A stretch of DNA of 64,000 nt from Granulicella sp. L46 (GTDB lineage Bacteria; Acidobacteriota; Terriglobia; Terriglobales; Acidobacteriaceae). Position numbers and translations under genes: made by a program. The notes beneath the pieces are model-generated. The model was not told the DNA's origin. It saw only the letters and a list, made by a program, of their open reading frames with translations, and did no database searches. The first letter of the stretch is position 1. Each line of letters begins with the position of its first letter. The stretch is taken from the NCBI RefSeq assembly GCF_009765785.1, contig NZ_LMUT01000012.1, forward strand, positions 1,584,654-1,648,653, given 5' to 3'. Below, one piece after another: positions 17,789-58,100 of the stretch.

Positions 17789-17865
<77 letters not shown>

Positions 17866-17871
17866 AAAAAC

Positions 17872-19383
17872 CTACGTATTTCCAATTACTTCCAAGCCCC
17901 GCAGCTTGGAAGTTTTCTCTTTGAGGGTGGATAAGAGGGCGGAATCGACGGAGCTGTGATGTTGTTTGCTCTGTACTTCTGCAACAGCCTTCTCAAGTTC
18001 ATCACCCAGACCTCTAGCTGCGTCCTCGTTTCCTTTCCAGTCGAGCGTGTGACCGTACACGTCCAGGGTGAAGCTCCCAGTGAGTGCATGACCGATGCGT
18101 TCTTGGATCGTTTTGAGAGGGACGCGCAACGCATCCATCATCGATACGTTGAAGTGACGAAAGGCATGGTATCCGGCCTTTGGCAATTGCAACGTTTCGA
18201 GGATAGGTGCAAGGCGTCGGCTCCGTTCCACATCCATATCTAACGGGCTACCAGTGCTCACAGAGAACAACCGGGTTTGGTTGACTGCTTTCTGACGACC
18301 AATCTGCTTCCACAGCAATTCGGAAAGCTGTGGAGAGATGGCAATCGTTCGCACGGCATTCTGCGTCTTCGGGGCCTGGTCTTCCCCGCCCCACACGGAC
18401 TGCTCGATGGTAATCCGGTCAAGCGCCACGTTCTGGATACGCATCCCTGAAAGCTCCCCTGCTCGGATGCCGGTCTCAGCAAACAGCCAATAAACGCACG
18501 CTTGCTGTTCCGTTGCCCCAGAGACGATGATGCGAGCCACATCCTCAAGAGTGAAGAAGCGTGGTTTTTTCTTCGTGTTCTTAGGGAGCTTTGGCTTCGG
18601 CAAGGTCGCGTCAACGTACTTCTGAGCAAGGGCCGCATCCCAGATGAGGCGGATGGTCCCCCACACATTCCGTATCGTCTTCGGTTCTTTACCTTCGCGG
18701 GTGAGCTTCGCAATGAGCCGCTGAACATCACCGGCGTCAATCGCTCGCATGTCCTTTATGCCGAACACAGCCTTCAGCAATCGAAGGTGTGTCCGCACGC
18801 TGGATTGTGTAGATGGCTTCGAGAGCACTAAATAATCTCGCTCCCAAATCTCTGCAAAGGCTTCAAAGGTTGCAGTCTTGCGCTCCCTCGATGGGAAGGT
18901 TGATTTTTCGTTGACGCGGTTCAGATAGGGTTGAAGCAAATTCTTTGCTTCGCTTTTCCGCACGGGCGTTCCATCCGGCTTGCGGGACGTTGATAGAACG
19001 ATGCGAACCTTTCTGCGCCGCTCGACGCCATGAGCATCTAGCGCGTATTCGGAATATTCGCCAAGCCATCGCGTGTTAGTTGAGTTGAGATACACGGTTC
19101 CTCTTTGAAATCTTCGACGTGCCACGGTAGTACCGATGCCTTTCCGTGTTGTCGAATCAATCGCTGCTAGAGGAAGTTTAACTTGTTTGCGCTTCGCCTT
19201 CGCGAAGAAGTTGCGCTGCTTTGGTGCTTCAGTTTTTGGGGTATCCAACGTTGGACCTAGTACCCGCGCTCTACGGGCGTGTGCGCCATTCAGCTGTGTG
19301 AACGGAGAACAAGAGCAACGCCACAAAGTTCTTGCGATTTCCGCAAATGCGTGGCGGTCGGCTCTGTTCTGAGTCAATCCCAC
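17872..19383 (-). CDS. Tyrosine-recombinase integrase of the island
   Basis: Site-specific recombinase, transcribed toward the tRNA it uses as attachment site. Residues about 165-275 are the SAM-like core-binding domain (FAEIWERDYLVLSKPSTQSSVRTHL). The catalytic domain shows Arg in TGIRAGELSGM, a Lys region in KTQNAVRTIAIS, HxxR in HAFRHFNVSM, the second His in RIGHALTGSF and the nucleophile Tyr in DVYGHTLD. The listed 503-residue frame starts at a GTG, but the first 85 residues are atypical; a GTG at 19125 (start of VARRRFQRGTVYLN, shared in style with the second integrase) is a strong alternative. Next to attL with a 6-base gap, as expected for tRNA-targeting elements. Confidence 0.93.
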   Translation of the reverse strand: MGLTQNRADRHAFAEIARTLWRCSCSPFTQLNGAHARRARVLGPTLDTPKTEAPKQRNFFAKAKRKQVKLPLAAIDSTTRKGIGTTVARRRFQRGTVYLNSTNTRWLGEYSEYALDAHGVERRRKVRIVLSTSRKPDGTPVRKSEAKNLLQPYLNRVNEKSTFPSRERKTATFEAFAEIWERDYLVLSKPSTQSSVRTHLRLLKAVFGIKDMRAIDAGDVQRLIAKLTREGKEPKTIRNVWGTIRLIWDAALAQKYVDATLPKPKLPKNTKKKPRFFTLEDVARIIVSGATEQQACVYWLFAETGIRAGELSGMRIQNVALDRITIEQSVWGGEDQAPKTQNAVRTIAISPQLSELLWKQIGRQKAVNQTRLFSVSTGSPLDMDVERSRRLAPILETLQLPKAGYHAFRHFNVSMMDALRVPLKTIQERIGHALTGSFTLDVYGHTLDWKGNEDAARGLGDELEKAVAEVQSKQHHSSVDSALLSTLKEKTSKLRGLEVIGNT

Positions 19384-22302: not shown

Positions 22303-22921
22303 GGCGGAGGGACTCTCATTACGCGTCGCCGTTCGTTTGTAAATCACGAGTGAGTAGGTAGCCGAAAGGAGCATTGCGAGCGCGAACGGGAGCAGAAACC
22401 ACCGGGACGTCCCGCTAAGGCCAAGGCTAACCCACAGTCCCGCTAAACACGGTGATCCATGATGCGAATCGGTGGGTTGCGATCCAAACTCGTTCGCTGG
22501 CGAGCGTCCAGGGCGTTCGGACGCCCAGGAAGAAGTTAGGACGCACCTTGCTCAACAGATTGCCAACGCGAACTCCCAGTCGTTTGGCTCCCTTGACCCT
22601 GCGAATGCCTGCGGCAAGGTCGGGGCTGAGCAGCCCGCAATCCGAAGCCTCATATGCGAGCCTGCGAACCGCAGCTAGTCGGAGGTTGATTGTTGAAGGA
22701 GCGTATCTCCGCTGCTCCAGCGCGATGCGGTAGCGGGTCACTACGGTTTTGTTGAACGCGAGTCGCGGTTCGGAGCAGTACCACTCAATGAAGTCGCGGA
22801 TGGCGTGGTCATACGACCGTCGCGAGTTCAAGGAAGGAAGGCTGTTGAGGACTGCTGATTTGGAATAATCGAGGTCAGGAAGTTTGAGAATGCTCTTTGG
22901 TTTCTTTGCTCTTTTCGCCAT
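22303..22921 (-). pseudogene. Chimera of a truncated tyrosine recombinase and an SdpI-like C-terminus
   Basis: The frame 22427-22921 starts as a phage-type recombinase core-binding domain (SLNSRRSYDHAIRDFIEWYC, VTRYRIALEQRRYAPSTINLRLAAVRRLAYEA, LAAGIRRVKGAKRLGVR) and has no catalytic domain. From about residue 120 it continues in frame as SdpI-like sequence (GNLLSKVRPNFFLGVRTPWT, then RVWIATHRFASW); SdpI/DUF1648 proteins are membrane immunity factors. The SdpI part then runs on in another frame to about 22303 with hydrophobic segments (GLWVSLGLSG, WFLLPFALAMLLSATYSLVI). Two truncated genes joined by deletion, plus a frameshift. The SdpI match is from motif memory, not a search. Confidence 0.65.
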
Positions 22922-29742: not shown

Positions 29743-30669
29743 TTATGCGATAAAGTCCAAGGGGTTCTCGGACTCTTTGAGGGTTCCTACTCCAACCATT
29801 ATCGTTTGATACGCGTCTTCGTCTCCCGGACCTAGTTTGACCGGGCGTTGTGGGAGCTTACCGCTTCCAGCGTAGAACCAGATCTTTCTCTCTTCTTCCT
29901 CCACGTCGTCTACATACGTGAGATCGGGGTTGTTCGCGCGATCTCTTAGCTGGTCTGTCTTCCACTGGCGAGCGAGCCATCGCGCTTTCGCCCGAAAGCG
30001 CTCATTCAGCGGGACAAGGGAGTCAAGAAACTCCGTTGGGTTATCTCCGATATATTCCCACGTTCGGGAAGAGATTTCGTCTGCGGCGTCACTGATATTC
30101 AGGTCAAGGGAAGTTCGTAATACATCCCATGCACCTGCGTAGACTGCCTTCTTATATTTGGTGATCCATTCACCCAACTCCGCGAGACCTCTTGCCTCAC
30201 GCACAGTCGTTTCAATCGCCCATGTCGTGAGGGCTGGTAAGTCGTTCATGTCACCCGAATATTCCGGCAGGCGGCGTGACACTCGCGAGAGGACAGACCA
30301 CCCGCAATAATAATTCGGCACCTTTTTGGCTTCTCTCAGAATCATCGCCGACAGGGCTTCAAAACTTACGTTCAGCTGTGCGATACGCGACGCCCATGCT
30401 ACCGCTTGCTCACGAAATGTACACCTGTCGTCCAGTCCTATGAACTCGTCGAGGTGATCCCCTAGCTGTTGTGCGATGCGCTCTGCATCCAGGATTGTGG
30501 TGCCTTCGACTTCTAGGACCGCTTGTCGAACCGCTCCTTGCGTGCGCTTCTGCCGGTAGTATCGCAAAACTCGACGCCTTTGTTGCGCATGCGTTGGTGT
30601 CGACACCCTTTCTAATTCATCTGCTGCTCCTGCGGCGAGATTCGCCGCACTGATTCTCTCACTGCTCAT
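29743..30669 (-). CDS. Operon protein of unknown function, helical
   Basis: 308 residues, no signal peptide or membrane helix. The N-terminus is basic and helical (THAQQRRRVLRYYRQKRTQG). The middle contains aromatic-rich helices (PNYYCGWSVLSRVSRRLPEY, YKKAVYAGAWDVLRTSLDL), and the end is acidic (DVEEEERKIWFYAGSG, GPGDEDAYQTIMVG). Start and stop overlap with the 99-residue gene upstream (11 bases). The context, directly downstream of a replication-initiator candidate, suggests a role in replication or element maintenance. No family recognised. Confidence 0.6.
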   Translation of the reverse strand: MSSERISAANLAAGAADELERVSTPTHAQQRRRVLRYYRQKRTQGAVRQAVLEVEGTTILDAERIAQQLGDHLDEFIGLDDRCTFREQAVAWASRIAQLNVSFEALSAMILREAKKVPNYYCGWSVLSRVSRRLPEYSGDMNDLPALTTWAIETTVREARGLAELGEWITKYKKAVYAGAWDVLRTSLDLNISDAADEISSRTWEYIGDNPTEFLDSLVPLNERFRAKARWLARQWKTDQLRDRANNPDLTYVDDVEEEERKIWFYAGSGKLPQRPVKLGPGDEDAYQTIMVGVGTLKESENPLDFIA

Positions 30670-30958
30670 TTGCCCCTTTTATGTGGATTTCTACTGCTGT
30701 GCTGCGTGTACTGCTGATTGCCCGGGCCGTTGCCGCTTCGTTCGCTATTACGCCGGATACATACCGCCAAACTACCTCGGGATTCGGAACCGGGGTGACA
30801 CCGAACTTCTTGGAAGCCCGGATGATGCCGTGTTCCACGAACCGGTCAGATTCGGCGCACCACCTTCCCATCCAGGCCGGATCCGGCGCTGGAATCTGCG
30901 GTAGCATCAAGGCCCAGAGTTTGGCAGTCTCGCCAATACGGTTCACTAATGTCATCAT
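30659..30958 (-). CDS. Operon protein of unknown function
   Basis: 99 residues, coupled at both ends: its ATG overlaps the stop of the replication-initiator candidate by four bases, and its own end overlaps the next gene. Sequence features are an aromatic segment (PAPDPAWMGRWCAESDRFVEHGI) and an alanine-rich helix (GVIANEAATARAISS). Position next to an initiator recalls phage replication-loader genes, but no helicase-loader motif is visible. Confidence 0.55.
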   Translation of the reverse strand: MMTLVNRIGETAKLWALMLPQIPAPDPAWMGRWCAESDRFVEHGIIRASKKFGVTPVPNPEVVWRYVSGVIANEAATARAISSTRSTAVEIHIKGANEQ

Positions 30959-31938
30959 GCGGCCTCCTTCCTTTTCTGTTCCAGGGTTGCATTCATCTCG
31001 TTCATTAGTCGCGGGAACGCATCCTCGAAGCCCTTACCCCGCTCTCTGCGCACAATGTCATCACCACAGGTCTCGTGGTAAAACTTGGCGACCGCTTCGA
31101 TGGTCTGTCCACTGTAACCCTTGTTTAGAAGTCGGAGTACGTGTAATTCCCAGTTAGCTTCGTAGGTTGCGAAGCCCAGATTTGCCATCGTCGCTTTAGC
31201 AACCAATGATGCGGCTTTTGGCTCCCGTACTTTCGGTGCTGGCGTATTCGATACGACCGTCCCAGTTTGAGGGAATGGCCGCGTCTCTGTATGCGTAGCT
31301 TCAGCTTTTCCGGTCTTCCGCTTTTTGCGTTTGCTAAAGCGTTCAATGAAAGCCATTCCCTCTAGCTGGGATGGCGTCAGAGAGCTAATATCAGTAATTT
31401 TATTTGTTGTTTGTATAAGTTGTTTATATAGGTTACTTCCCTTTCCATGGGATGGTGACCCGCTAGGAGGGAACGGCGCTCCACCACTAGGGAACGGTGA
31501 CGCATTAGGAGGGAACGGTGAACGTTCCATTCCCTCTAGTTGGGATTGGGCCATTACCTCTACGCGTGACGGGTCGAAGCAGCATCTCGGGTGTTCGGAC
31601 GCCCACTCTTCGTGAGACAGCACCTTGTAATGCGTGGGCGAGAGCGTACCGTTGGAGCGGCGTGTCGGCTTCTTGAGCAGTTTGAACCAACCGGCCTCAA
31701 GGAGCGACTTGGCTACACCATACGGGGTATTTTTGCTCATGGACCTAAACCGCTCGGCTATTTTCGGCCCGGAGAAGTAGAGGGTTCCATTACCCCTGTC
31801 GTTGCCCAGTGCGAGCGCGCGGCATACATCATAGATTGCGTACTCGGTGGCGCTCATGTGATGGTGTGGGAAGCACCGCGATTGAGATGCAAGAGTATTT
31901 GAAGCTGGTGAAACTGTATCTTCTGACATGTCAGTCAT
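30955..31938 (-). CDS. Replication-initiator candidate with internal origin-like repeats
   Basis: 327 residues. Residues about 25-115 look like a winged-helix DNA-binding domain (ATEYAIYDVCRALALGN, SGPKIAERFRSMSKNTPYG, VAKSLLEAGWFKLLKKPTRR). A central linker holds heptad repeats of the form S/A-PFP-x3 (SPFPPNA, SPFPSGG, APFPPSG) encoded by four tandem 20-21-bp DNA repeats. The C-terminal part is helical and basic (FSKRKKRKTGKAE, LHVLRLLNKGYSGQTIEAV). This architecture recalls phage replication initiators such as lambda O. It is transcribed from a consensus promoter at 32138-32166 and starts the overlapping gene series. The initiator role is inferred. Confidence 0.65.
   Translation of the reverse strand: MTDMSEDTVSPASNTLASQSRCFPHHHMSATEYAIYDVCRALALGNDRGNGTLYFSGPKIAERFRSMSKNTPYGVAKSLLEAGWFKLLKKPTRRSNGTLSPTHYKVLSHEEWASEHPRCCFDPSRVEVMAQSQLEGMERSPFPPNASPFPSGGAPFPPSGSPSHGKGSNLYKQLIQTTNKITDISSLTPSQLEGMAFIERFSKRKKRKTGKAEATHTETRPFPQTGTVVSNTPAPKVREPKAASLVAKATMANLGFATYEANWELHVLRLLNKGYSGQTIEAVAKFYHETCGDDIVRRERGKGFEDAFPRLMNEMNATLEQKRKEAA
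31353..31546. other. Origin-like repeat cluster inside the initiator gene
   Basis: Four tandem repeats start at 31449, 31469, 31490 and 31511 (spacings 20, 21, 21) with core GGGAACGG (first copy GGGATGG). The whole is flanked by two 20-base direct repeats differing at one position (31353-31372 and 31527-31546, core CCATTCCCTCTAG). Beside the repeats, 31386-31440 is strongly AT-rich for this genome, a possible unwinding element. Confidence 0.5.
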
Positions 31939-32259: not shown

Positions 32260-32796
32260 TTACATTCTCCAGACATCCTCGAGTGATTGTGGAGGACGCT
32301 CTACAGGAACCTTTGGCTCGGACAAGTAGCCGGAGGACTTCATCGTAGTATCGGGTAGCACCCGCTCCAGCATCATCTCAGGACTGAGCCGGTTGAAGCG
32401 AAATGTGTTCTGAGGATGCAGGTGATCTTCCAATATCACGCGGCAGGCCTCCAGGCGCTCGAGTCGGTGTATCGACTCATCGACCACAATGGCAAGAAAT
32501 GCGCGGAACACCAACCTTTCTTTGACCTTGACTAACGCATCCTTCAGGCTCCAGCCATTCAGCGATCGACCGCCGGTAGCCCCTTCAAACATTTCAGCAA
32601 ACTGTCGCTCCAATGCGGTTTCGCGAGGCCAGGGCTTTAGGAGTTCCTGAACTTCCGCGTGATCTTCTGTGGGCTCCGGTACTGCTGCTACTTGTAACCG
32701 GACCGCGTGCTCCGCTGCGACCATTCGACCCGCAAGGGTGATTGATTCATCTGAGATCAACGCCCTCAAGTCGTCCAACTTTTCACTACTGATCAT
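32260..32796 (-). CDS. Operon protein of unknown function
   Basis: 178 residues, acidic and helical (DDLRALISDESITLAGRMVAAEHAV, SLKDALVKVKERLVFRAFL), with a proline-containing C-terminus (VPVERPPQSLEDVW). Overlaps the upstream 101-residue gene by 11 bases, so both are probably cotranscribed. No signal peptide, membrane helix or known motif. Confidence 0.55.
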   Translation of the reverse strand: MISSEKLDDLRALISDESITLAGRMVAAEHAVRLQVAAVPEPTEDHAEVQELLKPWPRETALERQFAEMFEGATGGRSLNGWSLKDALVKVKERLVFRAFLAIVVDESIHRLERLEACRVILEDHLHPQNTFRFNRLSPEMMLERVLPDTTMKSSGYLSEPKVPVERPPQSLEDVWRM

Positions 32797-38987: not shown

Positions 38988-39344
38988 TTATGGGGCTATC
39001 GAAACTCCATCCCAATCACACTCATCCTTCGGCTCTCGGAAGACTATGGGAAGAGGTGGCGCTTCTATCCATGTGCGGTTCAACTCTTCTTCATGCAAAT
39101 ACCCTATCCCTAAACGGAAAGCAAACACATCTTTGGTGCGATAGTGGGCCGCTGGTAGTCGCATGAGATAACGGACAACGCCTAACGGAAGGTACTCAAC
39201 ATCATCTTCTAGCTCATTCGTAAGCGGCACAGGAAAGTACCAAGCTCGATTTGTCTCAGGCTGCCGTGCCCAGACGAACCTTGAACCTGAACGTTCGCCA
39301 CTCGATTCTATGGCGGTAAATATTAGACAGGTCAGAGGTTCCAT
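38988..39344 (-). CDS. Small protein coupled to the 94-residue gene
   Basis: 118 residues. The ATG directly abuts the TAG of the upstream 94-residue gene (TAGATG). The sequence is aromatic-rich (SRFVWARQPETNRAWYFPVPL) and ends acidic (EPKDECDWDGVSIAP). Function unknown. The paralogue of the upstream gene at 54268 is instead followed by a YedK fragment. Confidence 0.55.
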   Translation of the reverse strand: MEPLTCLIFTAIESSGERSGSRFVWARQPETNRAWYFPVPLTNELEDDVEYLPLGVVRYLMRLPAAHYRTKDVFAFRLGIGYLHEEELNRTWIEAPPLPIVFREPKDECDWDGVSIAP

Positions 39345-50954: not shown

Positions 50955-52331
50955 CTAATGAGATTTAGGTCTGCGCACTCCTGACCGCACACCGAGTAAA
51001 GGCGAACGACCAATCGGCGTACGTGGTGTGTTGAGTGGTGGAGCATCCGAAAGACCCTCGAAAAGTTTCTGGGCGGGCCACTCACTGCTCGCGTAAACGC
51101 GCGGGTTTCGTAAGCTTTCCACACCTTCCTGCCAGGAGAGCAGCATTCTCTTTCCGATCCCTCGGAATAGCGGCAAATCGGTCCGCTTTTTTTCAACGAG
51201 TGGTACAGTATCCGCCACCGCGTCACTGATTGCTTCCAGAATTAGGTTTTGCTCTTTTAAAGGTATGCCGAAGGTTGTGGCGATGAACTTCTGTAAGTTC
51301 TTCCCCGGCGTCCAAGTCTTCTTTCCGAGAAAGCTTATTCCTGGAGGATTGTTTTGATACCCGGCGTAGACGGTCGTAGTGAGAAAGTCGTAGGCGGGAG
51401 CCAGATGGACATCTTCGCGTGACGTGTAGAGAAGCGCGATATTCTTGGCGTGGCAATCAGCATTTTTCAAGGCATACGTCAGCATAAGGATGGATGCCAA
51501 GGCTTTGAATGTTTCGTACTGACGAGCACCTGGAACCTGCTCACGCACCGCGCGAGCGATTCGCTCCCAAGTCGTCTCGTACTTCTGTGCGGGCCTTAGG
51601 CCCAGTAAAGCACAGAAATCTTCCATACCCCAGAAGGGTTGGCCATTCTGATCAACGTCAAATCGATGAACAACGAGAGCTTGGCCATCTTGCGAAACTT
51701 CAGTCTTCGCGCTGGGAAGAACTTTACTGACTACTTGCATACACAGATATTCGTTCAGAGCTGCAAATGGCACCCGTTCCGAAGACCCTTTGATGATGTG
51801 TCGGCGGGTCAATAGTGTTGCTTTCTGATGGCGTCCTAGTTCGTTTTTAGGGTGGCCTTCTTTCGTCGTTTCCTCTTCTTGATCGAGGAACTTCGGAAGT
51901 ACACCTGAGACACCGCTGGTTGCGTGTTGACGGACCAGCGCTGCAAACGCTTCTTCTGAGTTGTCTCCCTGGAGGATGTTTTTTACCTCGATGGGCTGAG
52001 GCGGCTCACCTAATTCAACTCCCGGCGCAGCAATCTGAATCCTTCCGATCATGTTTCTGCCGATTACGGATAGCAAGGACAGAGGACTCGCGCCGATGAG
52101 GGGACCAAACTGTTCTTGCAAGACTTGCAGCAAATAGCCTTCCGGCAAGTTCATCTGGAGAACAGGAGGAAGCTGGTCGTCCCATGGGTAGGATTCAGGG
52201 CGTACAGGCATGGTCAGGGAAATGAAATCGTTCTCCTGTGTTTGCGGCAGATAGGTGGTTAGGCTTTTGAAGTCACCTACGGATTCCAGGACGGCGACCT
52301 CTCGACCAAGGACGTAAACGGAGAGCTTCAT
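50955..52331 (-). CDS. hipA: HipA-type serine/threonine kinase toxin
   Basis: 458-residue toxin of a type II system; HipA of Escherichia coli phosphorylates glutamyl-tRNA synthetase. Recognisable parts: the N-subdomain (KLSVYVLGREVAVLE, PPVLQMNLPEGYLL), a nucleotide-binding segment (RRHIIKGSSERVPFAALNEYLCMQV), QALVVHRFDVDQNGQPFWGMEDFCALLGL, the catalytic loop LKNADCHAKNIALLY and the metal-binding LAPAYDFLTTTVY. The last 30 residues form an extra tail. ATGA overlap with hipB upstream. All active-site motifs are present, so it is likely functional; the target is unknown. Confidence 0.88.
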   Translation of the reverse strand: MKLSVYVLGREVAVLESVGDFKSLTTYLPQTQENDFISLTMPVRPESYPWDDQLPPVLQMNLPEGYLLQVLQEQFGPLIGASPLSLLSVIGRNMIGRIQIAAPGVELGEPPQPIEVKNILQGDNSEEAFAALVRQHATSGVSGVLPKFLDQEEETTKEGHPKNELGRHQKATLLTRRHIIKGSSERVPFAALNEYLCMQVVSKVLPSAKTEVSQDGQALVVHRFDVDQNGQPFWGMEDFCALLGLRPAQKYETTWERIARAVREQVPGARQYETFKALASILMLTYALKNADCHAKNIALLYTSREDVHLAPAYDFLTTTVYAGYQNNPPGISFLGKKTWTPGKNLQKFIATTFGIPLKEQNLILEAISDAVADTVPLVEKKRTDLPLFRGIGKRMLLSWQEGVESLRNPRVYASSEWPAQKLFEGLSDAPPLNTPRTPIGRSPLLGVRSGVRRPKSH

Positions 52332-54570: not shown

Positions 54571-55877
54571 TCATCCTCTACGCGGTAGTCTAGCGCGTTG
54601 CTCCAGTGTGAGGCTGTACTTCGTTGGCGGTTTCCTCACCTCGTCTGCCGTATCGTCGAACTCTTCCACCGGGGGCGGCGGGCCGAACGGTACGCGGGTT
54701 GGCGTTTCACCGCGGACGTTGTGGATGCTGCCCAGATAGACGGTGTTGAGGCCGTACCGCGCATTCATCTCATCCACAGAAGACACAACGCGCTCGCGAG
54801 CATCCGGGGCCGGTACAGAGAACAGGTCCGCTTGCGGCTCGGTATCGCGGTGCGTCAAGCCAACGGCGATGTCTGCGGGCGTGTAGGGGCGGCAGCCGCT
54901 TCCATAGTTGGGCCATGTGCGCCTGTAGGGTGTGCGGATCACGGCAGGGCGGTATCCTCACTCCGGACTCAAATGCGGGCCGGTCAAAGAATCCCACACG
55001 AAGTAACACTCCACCGGCCCATAGCTCGTTACGGCGCATCCGTCGTGCTGTGGAGTGCAAGAGCTTCAAGACGGCTCCCCTGGCCCGTCCTGGCGTGCGG
55101 CATGTGGGAGCCAGCATGTGTTGACGGCTGAGCGTCTGTAAGGGCTTGGCGGGCGGTTCTAAGAAATCCTCACCCCGAAGCCAGAGCCAAAGACGATCAC
55201 CCCACACGCTGCCCCACAACGCGCTCATCTTGTCTCGGGAAAGTTGGCATAGATCACGCATCGTCTCTATCCCGGCGTATCGAATACGTTTCTCTATCCG
55301 GGGACCGATGCCGGGCAGGTCGGAAAGGTCCAAGCTGTAGAGGGTTTGCGGCAGGTTCTGGCGTAGTAGCACCATCAAGCCGTCCGGCTTCTGCATCTCC
55401 CCGGCAACCTCCGCCAACAGTCGATTCGAAGCGAGGCCGATAGAACAACGGAGTGTACTTCCTACAGTGGCGCGAAATCTCTTGCTTGATCGCATAGGAA
55501 ATTTCGAGCGCCCGCAGTAACCCCCTCTCCCGGCGCATGAGCTCACACGCGAACTCGTCGCATGACATCACCTGTTGAATCGGTGCGCAGCGCTCAATTG
55601 CCCCGATGATCTTGTGGTGGAACTCCACGTATAGCCGGGGCCGCGCCTGCACGATGATGACGTGCGGACAGAGTACCTTCGCCTCATGCACGCCGGTTCC
55701 CGCCTTGATACCGTAGGCCTTCGCCTGATACGAAGCTGCTATGCAACAGGTGCTATCTGCGTTTACCGGCGCGATGACGATAGGACGGCCACGCAGCTCC
55801 GGCGCAAGCTCTTGCTCTATCGAAGCAAAGTAGCTATTTAGGTCTACGAATAACCAGTTGATGTCCGCGCCGTCCAT
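54571..55877 (-). pseudogene. Frameshifted Y-family DNA polymerase (DinB/ImuB-like)
   Basis: Translesion polymerase broken by at least two frameshifts. The first segment, from an ATG at 55877, has the catalytic Asp in WLFVDLNSYFASIE and the second acidic pair in SCDEFACEL. The reading frame then shifts near 55470 to RCSIGLASNRLLAEVAGEMQKPDG and DLPGIGPRIEKRIRYAGI. It shifts again near 54890 to the C-terminal DLFSVPAPDARERV, MNARYGLNTVYLG and the end PTKYSLTLEQRARLPRRG. All domains are present in order, so it decayed recently. A TATAAT stands six bases before the ATG, which could mean a leaderless message. Confidence 0.8.
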
Positions 55878-55953
55878 CGCCAGATTATAGGCGAATAAAA
55901 AGCGAATATGCTGTGAATCTTCTACGGGGCTAATTCCACAGATTTTGTAGTGT

Positions 55954-56265
55954 TTGGCCAGGTGCCCTGTGATAGCCTTTGGCGTGATTATTCCAGAGAA
56001 GTTCGATCTCACCTTCCGGCGCTTTCCTACAGAAGATAGGGACATTCATATCTTCGTGGTACACCAGCCGGACGGAGAGCTTTGGTATACGGGGACTGCC
56101 CCGCTCCCATCCCTTATGGACACGTTGAAGAGTGCTGCATGGCTAAAGCCTATCCATCTTAAACACGTTTCCGAAGCCGCCGCGCGTTATGACGAATACA
56201 CATTTCAAGTCACGGCCACTGTAGACGAATTGCGAGATGTCGGCCTGCTTCCGACGGGGAGTTGA
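55954..56265 (+). CDS. Hypothetical small protein near attR
   Basis: Up to 103 residues; start uncertain (TTG at 55954, or GTG at 55984 before IIPEKFDLTFRRF). The sequence FPTEDRDIHIFVVHQPDGELWYTGTAPLPSL and EYTFQVTATVDELRDVGLLP looks like a compact alpha/beta protein. No ribosome site stands out. Divergent from the polymerase relic and the last frame before attR. Confidence 0.4.
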   Translation: MARCPVIAFGVIIPEKFDLTFRRFPTEDRDIHIFVVHQPDGELWYTGTAPLPSLMDTLKSAAWLKPIHLKHVSEAAARYDEYTFQVTATVDELRDVGLLPTGS

Positions 56266-56395: not shown

Positions 56396-56440
56396 CTCAT
56401 AACCCAAAGGTCGTAGGTTCAAATCCTACCCCCGCAACCA
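56396..56440 (+). repeat. attR: right attachment repeat of the island
   Basis: Exact 45-base copy of the 3' end of tRNA-fMet, from the anticodon loop to CCA, without the 5' half of the tRNA. It defines the right end of the 38.6-kb insertion. Confidence 0.95.
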
Positions 56441-56465
56441 TTTAGCAGAAACGCCAACCCAAGAT

Positions 56466-56505
56466 AACCCACCCAGTCAGACGTCGCGAAACGCCAGGGT
56501 GGGTT
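56466..56505 (+). terminator. Hairpin with possible terminator role
   Basis: 9-bp stem AACCCACCC / GGGTGGGTT with a 22-base loop, followed on the plus strand by TTGGTGTGTTT. It lies between attR and the second integrase relic. The T-run is weak. Confidence 0.35.
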
Positions 56506-56534
56506 TTGGTGTGTTTGCAGGGTCCTTTGCATGG

Positions 56535-57846
56535 CTATGCGCTCCTCAGTACCATCCGGACCACCTTGCTGTTCGCCTCACGCTTGGCGCCCATCAAAGC
56601 GTTCCCATACACATTCATCGTCGTCGAGACCTGGGCGTGACGCATCAGCTTCTGCTGCACCCCGACAGGCGCCCCGGTGTCGTCCAGCCATGAACGGTAG
56701 GTATGGCGAAAAGTGTGCCACCCCACGCCGTCGTACTTCCCGGCTGACTCCCACCGTTCCTCATGCAGCGGCAAACGGCCGCCGTTCGGAGTTTTGCCCT
56801 CCTGCTGGCACCAGACGCCGGCACCCGCCCCGCACTTGGGGCATGCCACCAGACAACATCCTGCCGGACGAATATAGTCCTGCTGAATGGGCGCGGTGTG
56901 GAAGTGCCTGCCGGTTGCGGTGCTGGGAAAGAGAAGGTCCGACCCGTTAACTGGGTTTTTCCCTCCTCCTTGGCCCTCTTCTCGGACTCCAGCTTCCAGT
57001 CCAGAAGAACCGCCGCGAAGTCCGGATCGAGTGGAAGCTCGTCCTCCGAATACTCGGTCTTCACGACCTTGACCCGGCCGTGAACAACCGCCCGGACCAC
57101 CTTCATGCTTAGGTTCTCGAAGCCAATGTCCTGCCATTCGAGCGCCAGCACCTCTTCGGCCCGGAGGCCGGTGCACTGCGCACTATCACCATGATTCGGT
57201 AAGGCTGCGGAATCAGTGCGAGGAGCAGGTAATACTGCTCGACGGTCAGAACGATCGGCTTCTTGCGGCGTTTGCTGATCCCCTTAACCTCGGCCAGTTC
57301 CATCGGGTTCCGCTGCCACTCGACCATCTCCCACAGCATGGCCTTCTCATACAAACGGTGCATGATGGCCTTGACGTGACCTTTGGTCTTGGGCGCGGAA
57401 TCCATATTCTTCAGCCACTCCTGAACCTTCACCGGCTTCATCCGCGTGATGTGGGTCGTTCCCCACTTCGCTCGAACGTGCTTGAGGATGCTCAGGTAAG
57501 AGACGACGGTCGAATAGCTCAGTTCGCCTTCACCCTCACACCGATCACCGGGGCGGCGCTGCTTGATCTCCAGCATCCTTTCCTCCTCGATGAAGCGGTC
57601 CAGAATCGCGGCGAACGTCGGCTCCAGAACGGCCAGAGTTGGGTTTTCCGAGTTGAGTTTGAGCACGAAAGCCTCCAGATGCCGCTCGACCGAGACCTGC
57701 GTGGGGAACTTTTCAATGCTCAGAAACATAGACTTTCTCGTATTGGTTGTGGGGTCCTGGTAACGGTATTCCCAGGCCCATTGCTTGTTGGCCCGCGCAA
57801 CCTTGCGCAGGGTGCCTCGCTGAAATCTTTGCCGCGTGAATTTCAA
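56535..57846 (-). pseudogene. Frameshifted second integrase (tyrosine recombinase)
   Basis: Begins at a TTG at 57846 after GAGAGGAG, overlapping the stop of the excisionase-like gene (TTGA). The N-terminal part matches the style of the first integrase (RQRFQRGTL) and has a core-binding domain (STVVSYLSILKHVRAKWG). A one-base deletion near 57180 interrupts TGLRAEEVLALEWQDIGF (first catalytic Arg), and a second shift occurs near the GGGAAAAACCC run at about 56960. The last frame holds a cysteine insertion (CPKCGAGAGVWC ... H) and then GWHTFRHTYRSWL and RHAQVSTTMNVYG with the remaining catalytic residues. Inactive relic of a neighbouring element. Confidence 0.85.
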
Positions 57847-58100
57847 GGGTGTTGCTCCTCTCCAGTCAACGCAGCACGGTTGGTTGTGGTCGAGTTTAAC
57901 TCGTTTTCCAGCCATGTGTTCAACAAACTAAGCCGGAATTTCCACCGCTTACCGACCTTCAGCGCAGGGACTTTTCGGTTGCGCGCCATCCCCTCCAGCG
58001 TCTTCCAGTGCATCCCCAGAATGGCGGCGGTCTCTTCCAGATTCAGCAACGGCTCGAATCCGCGGGTCTGCAGATCGCGGATATTTTCTTCGTTTGGCAT
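57843..58100 (-). CDS. Excisionase-like helix-turn-helix protein
   Basis: 85 residues with an HTH_17-type domain: FEPLLNLEETAAILGMHWKTLEGMARNRKVPALKVGKRWKF followed by RLSLLNTWLENEL. The start at 58100 has GGGAGGAG six bases upstream. Located directly before the second integrase and translationally coupled to it, which is the usual xis-int order. The protein itself is intact although the integrase is broken. Confidence 0.78.
   Translation of the reverse strand: MPNEENIRDLQTRGFEPLLNLEETAAILGMHWKTLEGMARNRKVPALKVGKRWKFRLSLLNTWLENELNSTTTNRAALTGEEQHP

Follow-up and report, generated by a model that had tools for sequence, protein, structure and literature searches.

The placement of a replication origin inside the gene of its own initiator is an arrangement made famous by phage lambda. 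In the lambda genome (NC_001416), the midportion of the O gene contains four annotated iterons (39034-39118), which are spaced 20-24 bp apart and followed by a stretch in which the coding strand is A-rich, and the P gene overlaps O by 4 bp (ATGA). Lambdoid origins have been described with the same layout (PMC7466680), and in the origins of Gram-negative PICIs two sets of iterons flank an AT-rich region (PMC6092414). We analyzed a 64-kb stretch of the genome of Granulicella sp. L46 (hereafter, the window) and found in it a locus that we interpret, with a probability of roughly 85% for its architecture and purpose, as a lambda-type origin that an integrated island carries inside the gene for its O-like initiator. 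The design itself is already known, and the island is a well-supported further case of it rather than a new kind of system. We are less sure of the activity of the present copy than of its architecture, and the island could be defective. The observed basis of the interpretation consists of the architecture of the sites, their conservation at the DNA level, the instability of the duplex, the conservation seen across the family, and the borders of the island.

The candidate initiator gene, recognized by its intact open frame, its homologs, and a structure model, is listed here with the genes around it:

30955..31938, minus strand: candidate O-like replication initiator gene (327 aa)
30659..30958, minus strand: 99-aa gene (P0004), which overlaps the stop of the initiator gene by 4 bp (ATGA) and has a homolog at the same position in G018
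29743..30669, minus strand: 308-aa gene, the third in the module, with conserved counterparts in G018 and G180
32260..32796, minus strand: conserved backbone gene (178 aa; 43% to G252 and 37% to G180), located upstream of the slot for the initiator

The model of the whole initiator protein comprises a winged-helix N-terminal domain (residues ~20-118, of which 30-106 show the winged-helix order of elements), an iteron-encoded linker predicted to be disordered (121-240, modelled at low confidence), and a helical C-terminal domain (241-326). When the N-terminal domain is predicted alone with AF2, the pLDDT is 73.5 and the order of elements is helix-strand-helix-helix-strand-strand. The original prediction, which had proposed a winged-helix gene whose repeats encode a low-complexity linker, is borne out on both points: a winged-helix order of the fold is predicted at the N-terminus, and the repeats fall in the predicted disordered linker. 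The parallel that it drew with the iterons in the linker-coding part of O also holds, in that the parts follow the same order in lambda O and in the window gene, with iterons of ~20 bp in the linker-coding middle and, on their 3' side, an AT-rich stretch with an A-biased coding strand. As in lambda, an ATGA overlap of 4 bp joins the gene to the next one, both in the window and in G018. The window protein differs from lambda O in having no recognizable sequence homology to it, as neither Pfam nor PHROG yielded a match, and direct homologs were absent from the phage, plasmid, and viral-contig collections. Structure comparison matched it to phage replication and HTH proteins with TM-scores too low to rest on; its tie to the O-like proteins runs via distant homologs. 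A further departure from lambda concerns the 99-aa protein, which occupies the position of P but has no detectable homology to it and no match in Pfam or PHROG. In the module, we recognized neither a helicase nor a primase nor a homolog of lambda P.

Within the initiator gene there are seven sites in all, together with a putative unwinding element:

31527..31549, plus strand, opposite to the gene: I1, full palindromic-type iteron CCATTCCCTCTAGTTGGGATTGG; the coding strand reads SQLEGM
31496..31518, minus strand: I2, tandem iteron CCGTTCCCTCCTAATGCGTCACC, encoding PFPPNAS
31475..31497, minus strand: I3, tandem iteron CCGTTCCCTAGTGGTGGAGCGCC, encoding PFPSGGA
31454..31476, minus strand: I4, tandem iteron CCGTTCCCTCCTAGCGGGTCACC, encoding PFPPSGS
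31433..31455, minus strand: I5, degenerate iteron CCATCCCATGGAAAGGGAAGTAA
31386..31435, no strand assigned: putative DNA unwinding element, the 50-bp segment with the lowest duplex stability in the 64-kb window, as judged by duplex energy
31353..31375, plus strand: I6, full palindromic-type iteron CCATTCCCTCTAGCTGGGATGGC, encoding SQLEGM
31256..31278, minus strand: I7, full iteron CCATTCCCTCAAACTGGGACGGT, encoding PFPQTGT

Four tandem repeats of 20-21 bp had been proposed. Three of them are perfect GGGAACGG units at 21-bp steps (31469-31476, 31490-31497, and 31511-31518), but the fourth is degenerate (GGGATGG, 31449-31455). The nearly identical pair said to flank them (31353-31374 and 31527-31548) is likewise real, its 19-nt cores being 89% identical; however, it is not a separate element but the same iteron site reversed. 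These outer copies (CCATTCCCTC...; consensus CCATTCCCTCTAGyTGGGA) are the reverse-orientation version of the tandem site, in which the second arm (TGGGA) is preserved. Beyond the segment originally delimited (31353-31546) there is a third full copy, at 31256-31278. The inverted-repeat character is clear in I1 and I6 and weak in the tandem copies, which resemble half-sites rather than palindromes. The likeness to lambda extends to the sites themselves, in that TCCCTC and GGGA arms occur in both site types. The window gene differs from lambda in having sites in both orientations and in having the AT-rich stretch flanked by full sites on either side. The latter feature resembles the origins of the Gram-negative PICIs. 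The motif CCRTTCCC occurs 12 times in the 64 kb, with six of these occurrences falling inside a 265-bp part of the initiator gene. Across the 5.48-Mb genome, the full site CCRTTCCCTCNNNNNGGGA is matched perfectly only three times, each time inside this gene; as the pattern was derived from these very sites, the count conveys rarity and is no independent P value.

The AT-rich stretch placed beside the repeats by the original prediction (31386-31440) has a G+C content of 22%, and only 0.03% of 55-bp windows are equally AT-rich. The 50 bp at 31386-31435 have the lowest stability in the 64 kb even though they code for protein and their neighborhood has 52-55% G+C, and a 13-bp AT-rich direct repeat is located at 31406-31434, within the putative unwinding element. 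GC skew, which had been proposed as a check, gives no clear sign of a switch there and is uninformative.

The tandem units I2-I4 are read in one frame as similar peptides (PFPxxx), which would be expected if the repeats were an ordinary low-complexity Pro/Gly linker grown by slippage, with their likeness as DNA a by-product. We consider this explanation very improbable and reject peptide slippage because of the inverted and out-of-frame copies. In the window gene, the direct copies read PFPPN, PFPSGG, PFPPSG, and PFPQTG, whereas the inverted full copies encode the unrelated SQLEGM, and in homologs a single DNA word is read in three frames. The word CCACTCCGGTT.. of homolog L015 begins in all three frames (TPVLTGE, HSGYG, and PLRLEP), the CTCCGGTnGAC-like copies of L014 translate as PPPVD, QLRST, ASGRP, and RLRLTGE, and L003 has spacings of 22 and 34 bp, which move its repeats into another reading frame. 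Slippage of a peptide repeat is also at odds with the excess of repeats in a codon-shuffle test, in which synonymous codons were permuted with the protein sequence kept constant: the initiator gene contains 11 exact direct 10-mer pairs against 1.6 expected (p 0.001) and 6 exact inverted pairs against 1.2 expected (p 0.011). A mismatch-tolerant version of the test, which has low power, is borderline for the window gene (p 0.05-0.14) and likewise for lambda O (0.06-0.14), and clear for the homologs G018 and G228 (p <=0.005, the floor with 200 shuffles). Conservation confined to the protein level, which would have spoken against an origin, was looked for and the opposite was found, DNA words being kept on both strands and across several reading frames. 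On these sequence comparisons, the repeats are conserved as DNA words and not as peptides.

Homologs of the initiator are rare and were recovered from 3/300 genomes of the family, the genome under study included, and, with an N-terminal profile search, from 9/399 genomes of the class. The first of the genome-contig scans gave no match and the second gave one, which is the same record as G228. The homologs have the winged-helix domain in common and keep the architecture, with iterons in the same region of the gene and of differing sequence: each strong homolog has its own iteron (CCTGTCCGctcgggCGGACtGG in G018, CCATTCCCacccttGGGACTGG in G228, GTCCCAAATaCTGGGAC in G556, CTCCGGTTGACCGGAG in G552, CTCCGGTTCTAACCGGAG in G453, and an ACCGT-type iteron in G578). 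Both G018 and G228 show three AT-rich 15-mer-like repeats directly 3' of the iterons and then another, palindromic iteron, and in L014 and L015 the inverted-repeat iterons are visibly strong. Members of the family match the HTH_36 and MarR_2 profiles. That the winged-helix profile matches are mostly to such generic regulators (MarR, HTH_36) is what one might expect if the protein were a repressor or activator without a role in replication and the sites were operators for its autoregulation. This account strikes us as improbable: the sites lie in the middle of the gene, are phased by about two helical turns, and adjoin the DNA that has the lowest stability in the window. Moreover, one homolog is an O-like initiator, and the architecture agrees with that of the lambda origin. 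The homolog in question, L013, matches PHROG 678 'replication initiation O-like' with an E value of 9e-19 and phage O-like proteins in tblastn; L015 and L017 match the O-like profiles PHROG 678 / 391 weakly, and the window member falls below detection. The G453 homolog resides in a prophage, as its gene is followed by those for the terminase small subunit, head protease, and major head protein. Integrases abutting a tRNA are found near the homologs in G018 (tRNA-Ser), G556 (tRNA-Met), G453 (tRNA-Leu), and G228 (tRNA-Gly), and no att repeats were found within the 18-19.5-kb stretches searched for G018 and G228. We also observed that the weak homolog in G292 (L011, E 3.4e-4) is accompanied by five repeats of 21-24 bp with the core GCCGTGGGGCGGGA, which lie just 3' of the stop codon (L011 938-1160) and not in the gene.

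The island that carries the initiator gene is delimited by the following features:

17821..17865, plus strand: left att repeat (45 bp), the 3' end of a tRNA-Met gene (tRNA 17789-17865)
56396..56440, plus strand: right att repeat, an exact 45-bp copy of the left one
17872..19383, minus strand: the island's tyrosine integrase, separated by 6 bp from the tRNA-Met end

The span between the two 45-bp tRNA-Met att repeats is 38.6 kb, and the initiator gene lies inside it. The presence of an integrase and an att site is a point of resemblance to the PICIs. PICI membership was considered and is not claimed, because the island is 38.6 kb in size versus 12-15 kb for the Gram-negative PICIs and has no pri-rep primase in the ORFs scanned; it also differs from them in the location of the origin inside the initiator gene. 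Lambda, for its part, differs from this acidobacterial island in that virion genes were not recognized among the island ORFs scanned (a subset, searched for phage structural families). This last result, along with the presence in the island of a transposase gene of the integrase-core (rve) type and of an additional short integrase fragment, would fit a decayed remnant, in which the origin functioned in a phage or satellite ancestor and the island now neither excises nor replicates. Such decay is compatible with a lambda-type origin and denies only its present activity. We regard it as unlikely, given an intact initiator frame, full sites that are perfect, and 45-bp att repeats that are exact.

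Several other genes were noted in and around the island. A second integrase-like gene (57109-57915, minus strand), adjoined by an ORF at 56535-57176, occurs immediately to the right of the second att repeat (56441-57915) and suggests tandem elements at one tRNA-Met. Just inside the right att repeat, a Y-family (ImuB/DinB-like) polymerase (54770-56045, minus strand) is apparently split over two overlapping frames, possibly by a frameshift. The ORF at 22427-22921 (minus strand) joins an N-terminal part that is phage-integrase SAM-like to a C-terminal part of the SdpI type and is perhaps a fusion or a remnant, and a gene for a HipA-like kinase (50955-52331, minus strand) within the island is possibly toxin-antitoxin cargo.

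For a lambda-type origin inside the initiator gene, the following sequence of events may be envisaged. The integrase would excise a circle at the tRNA-Met att sites, and this circle would replicate autonomously. The winged-helix N-terminus would bind the CCRTTCCC sites, namely the three good tandem iterons with their 21-bp phasing and the three full inverted-type sites that flank the AT-rich stretch, whereupon the DNA at 31386-31435 would melt. The C-terminal domain, perhaps with the protein of the overlapping 99-aa gene, would then recruit a host helicase.

Comparison of the neighborhoods in other genomes points to variability at the position of the initiator. Homologs of P0004 occur in islands where no O-like gene could be detected. 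G252 and G180 have homologs of both P0004 and the 178-aa backbone gene, with a different protein between them. In G252 the slot holds a 253-aa protein whose gene contains five 12-bp repeats (CTGGCTGGGTTG, L056 1229-1304), which encode ATQPATQP and precede an A-rich coding stretch; this gene may harbor another internal origin. In G180 it holds an AAA_25 ATPase of the RepA-like type, and in G095 the P0004 homolog is adjoined by a protein whose match to a zinc ribbon is weak (E 0.003). In this small sample, the gene content suggests that replication initiators are exchanged at one position. We tentatively propose, as a possibility that falls somewhat short of even odds, a family of acidobacterial islands with a conserved backbone (the 178-aa gene, the initiator slot, and the 99-aa and 308-aa genes) and interchangeable initiators in the slot.

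The mobile elements of Acidobacteria have been little studied, and the present case extends the origin-inside-initiator layout of lambda to tRNA-integrated islands of this group. As homologs carry different iterons in the same part of the gene, the co-evolution of initiator specificity with the linker-encoding DNA becomes testable, and the segment could serve as a replicon for acidobacterial vectors. If the tentative family of islands is real, each such slot would, through the location of the origin within the initiator gene, be a replicon cassette that is self-contained and swappable, and this would explain the fast turnover of the iteron sequence.
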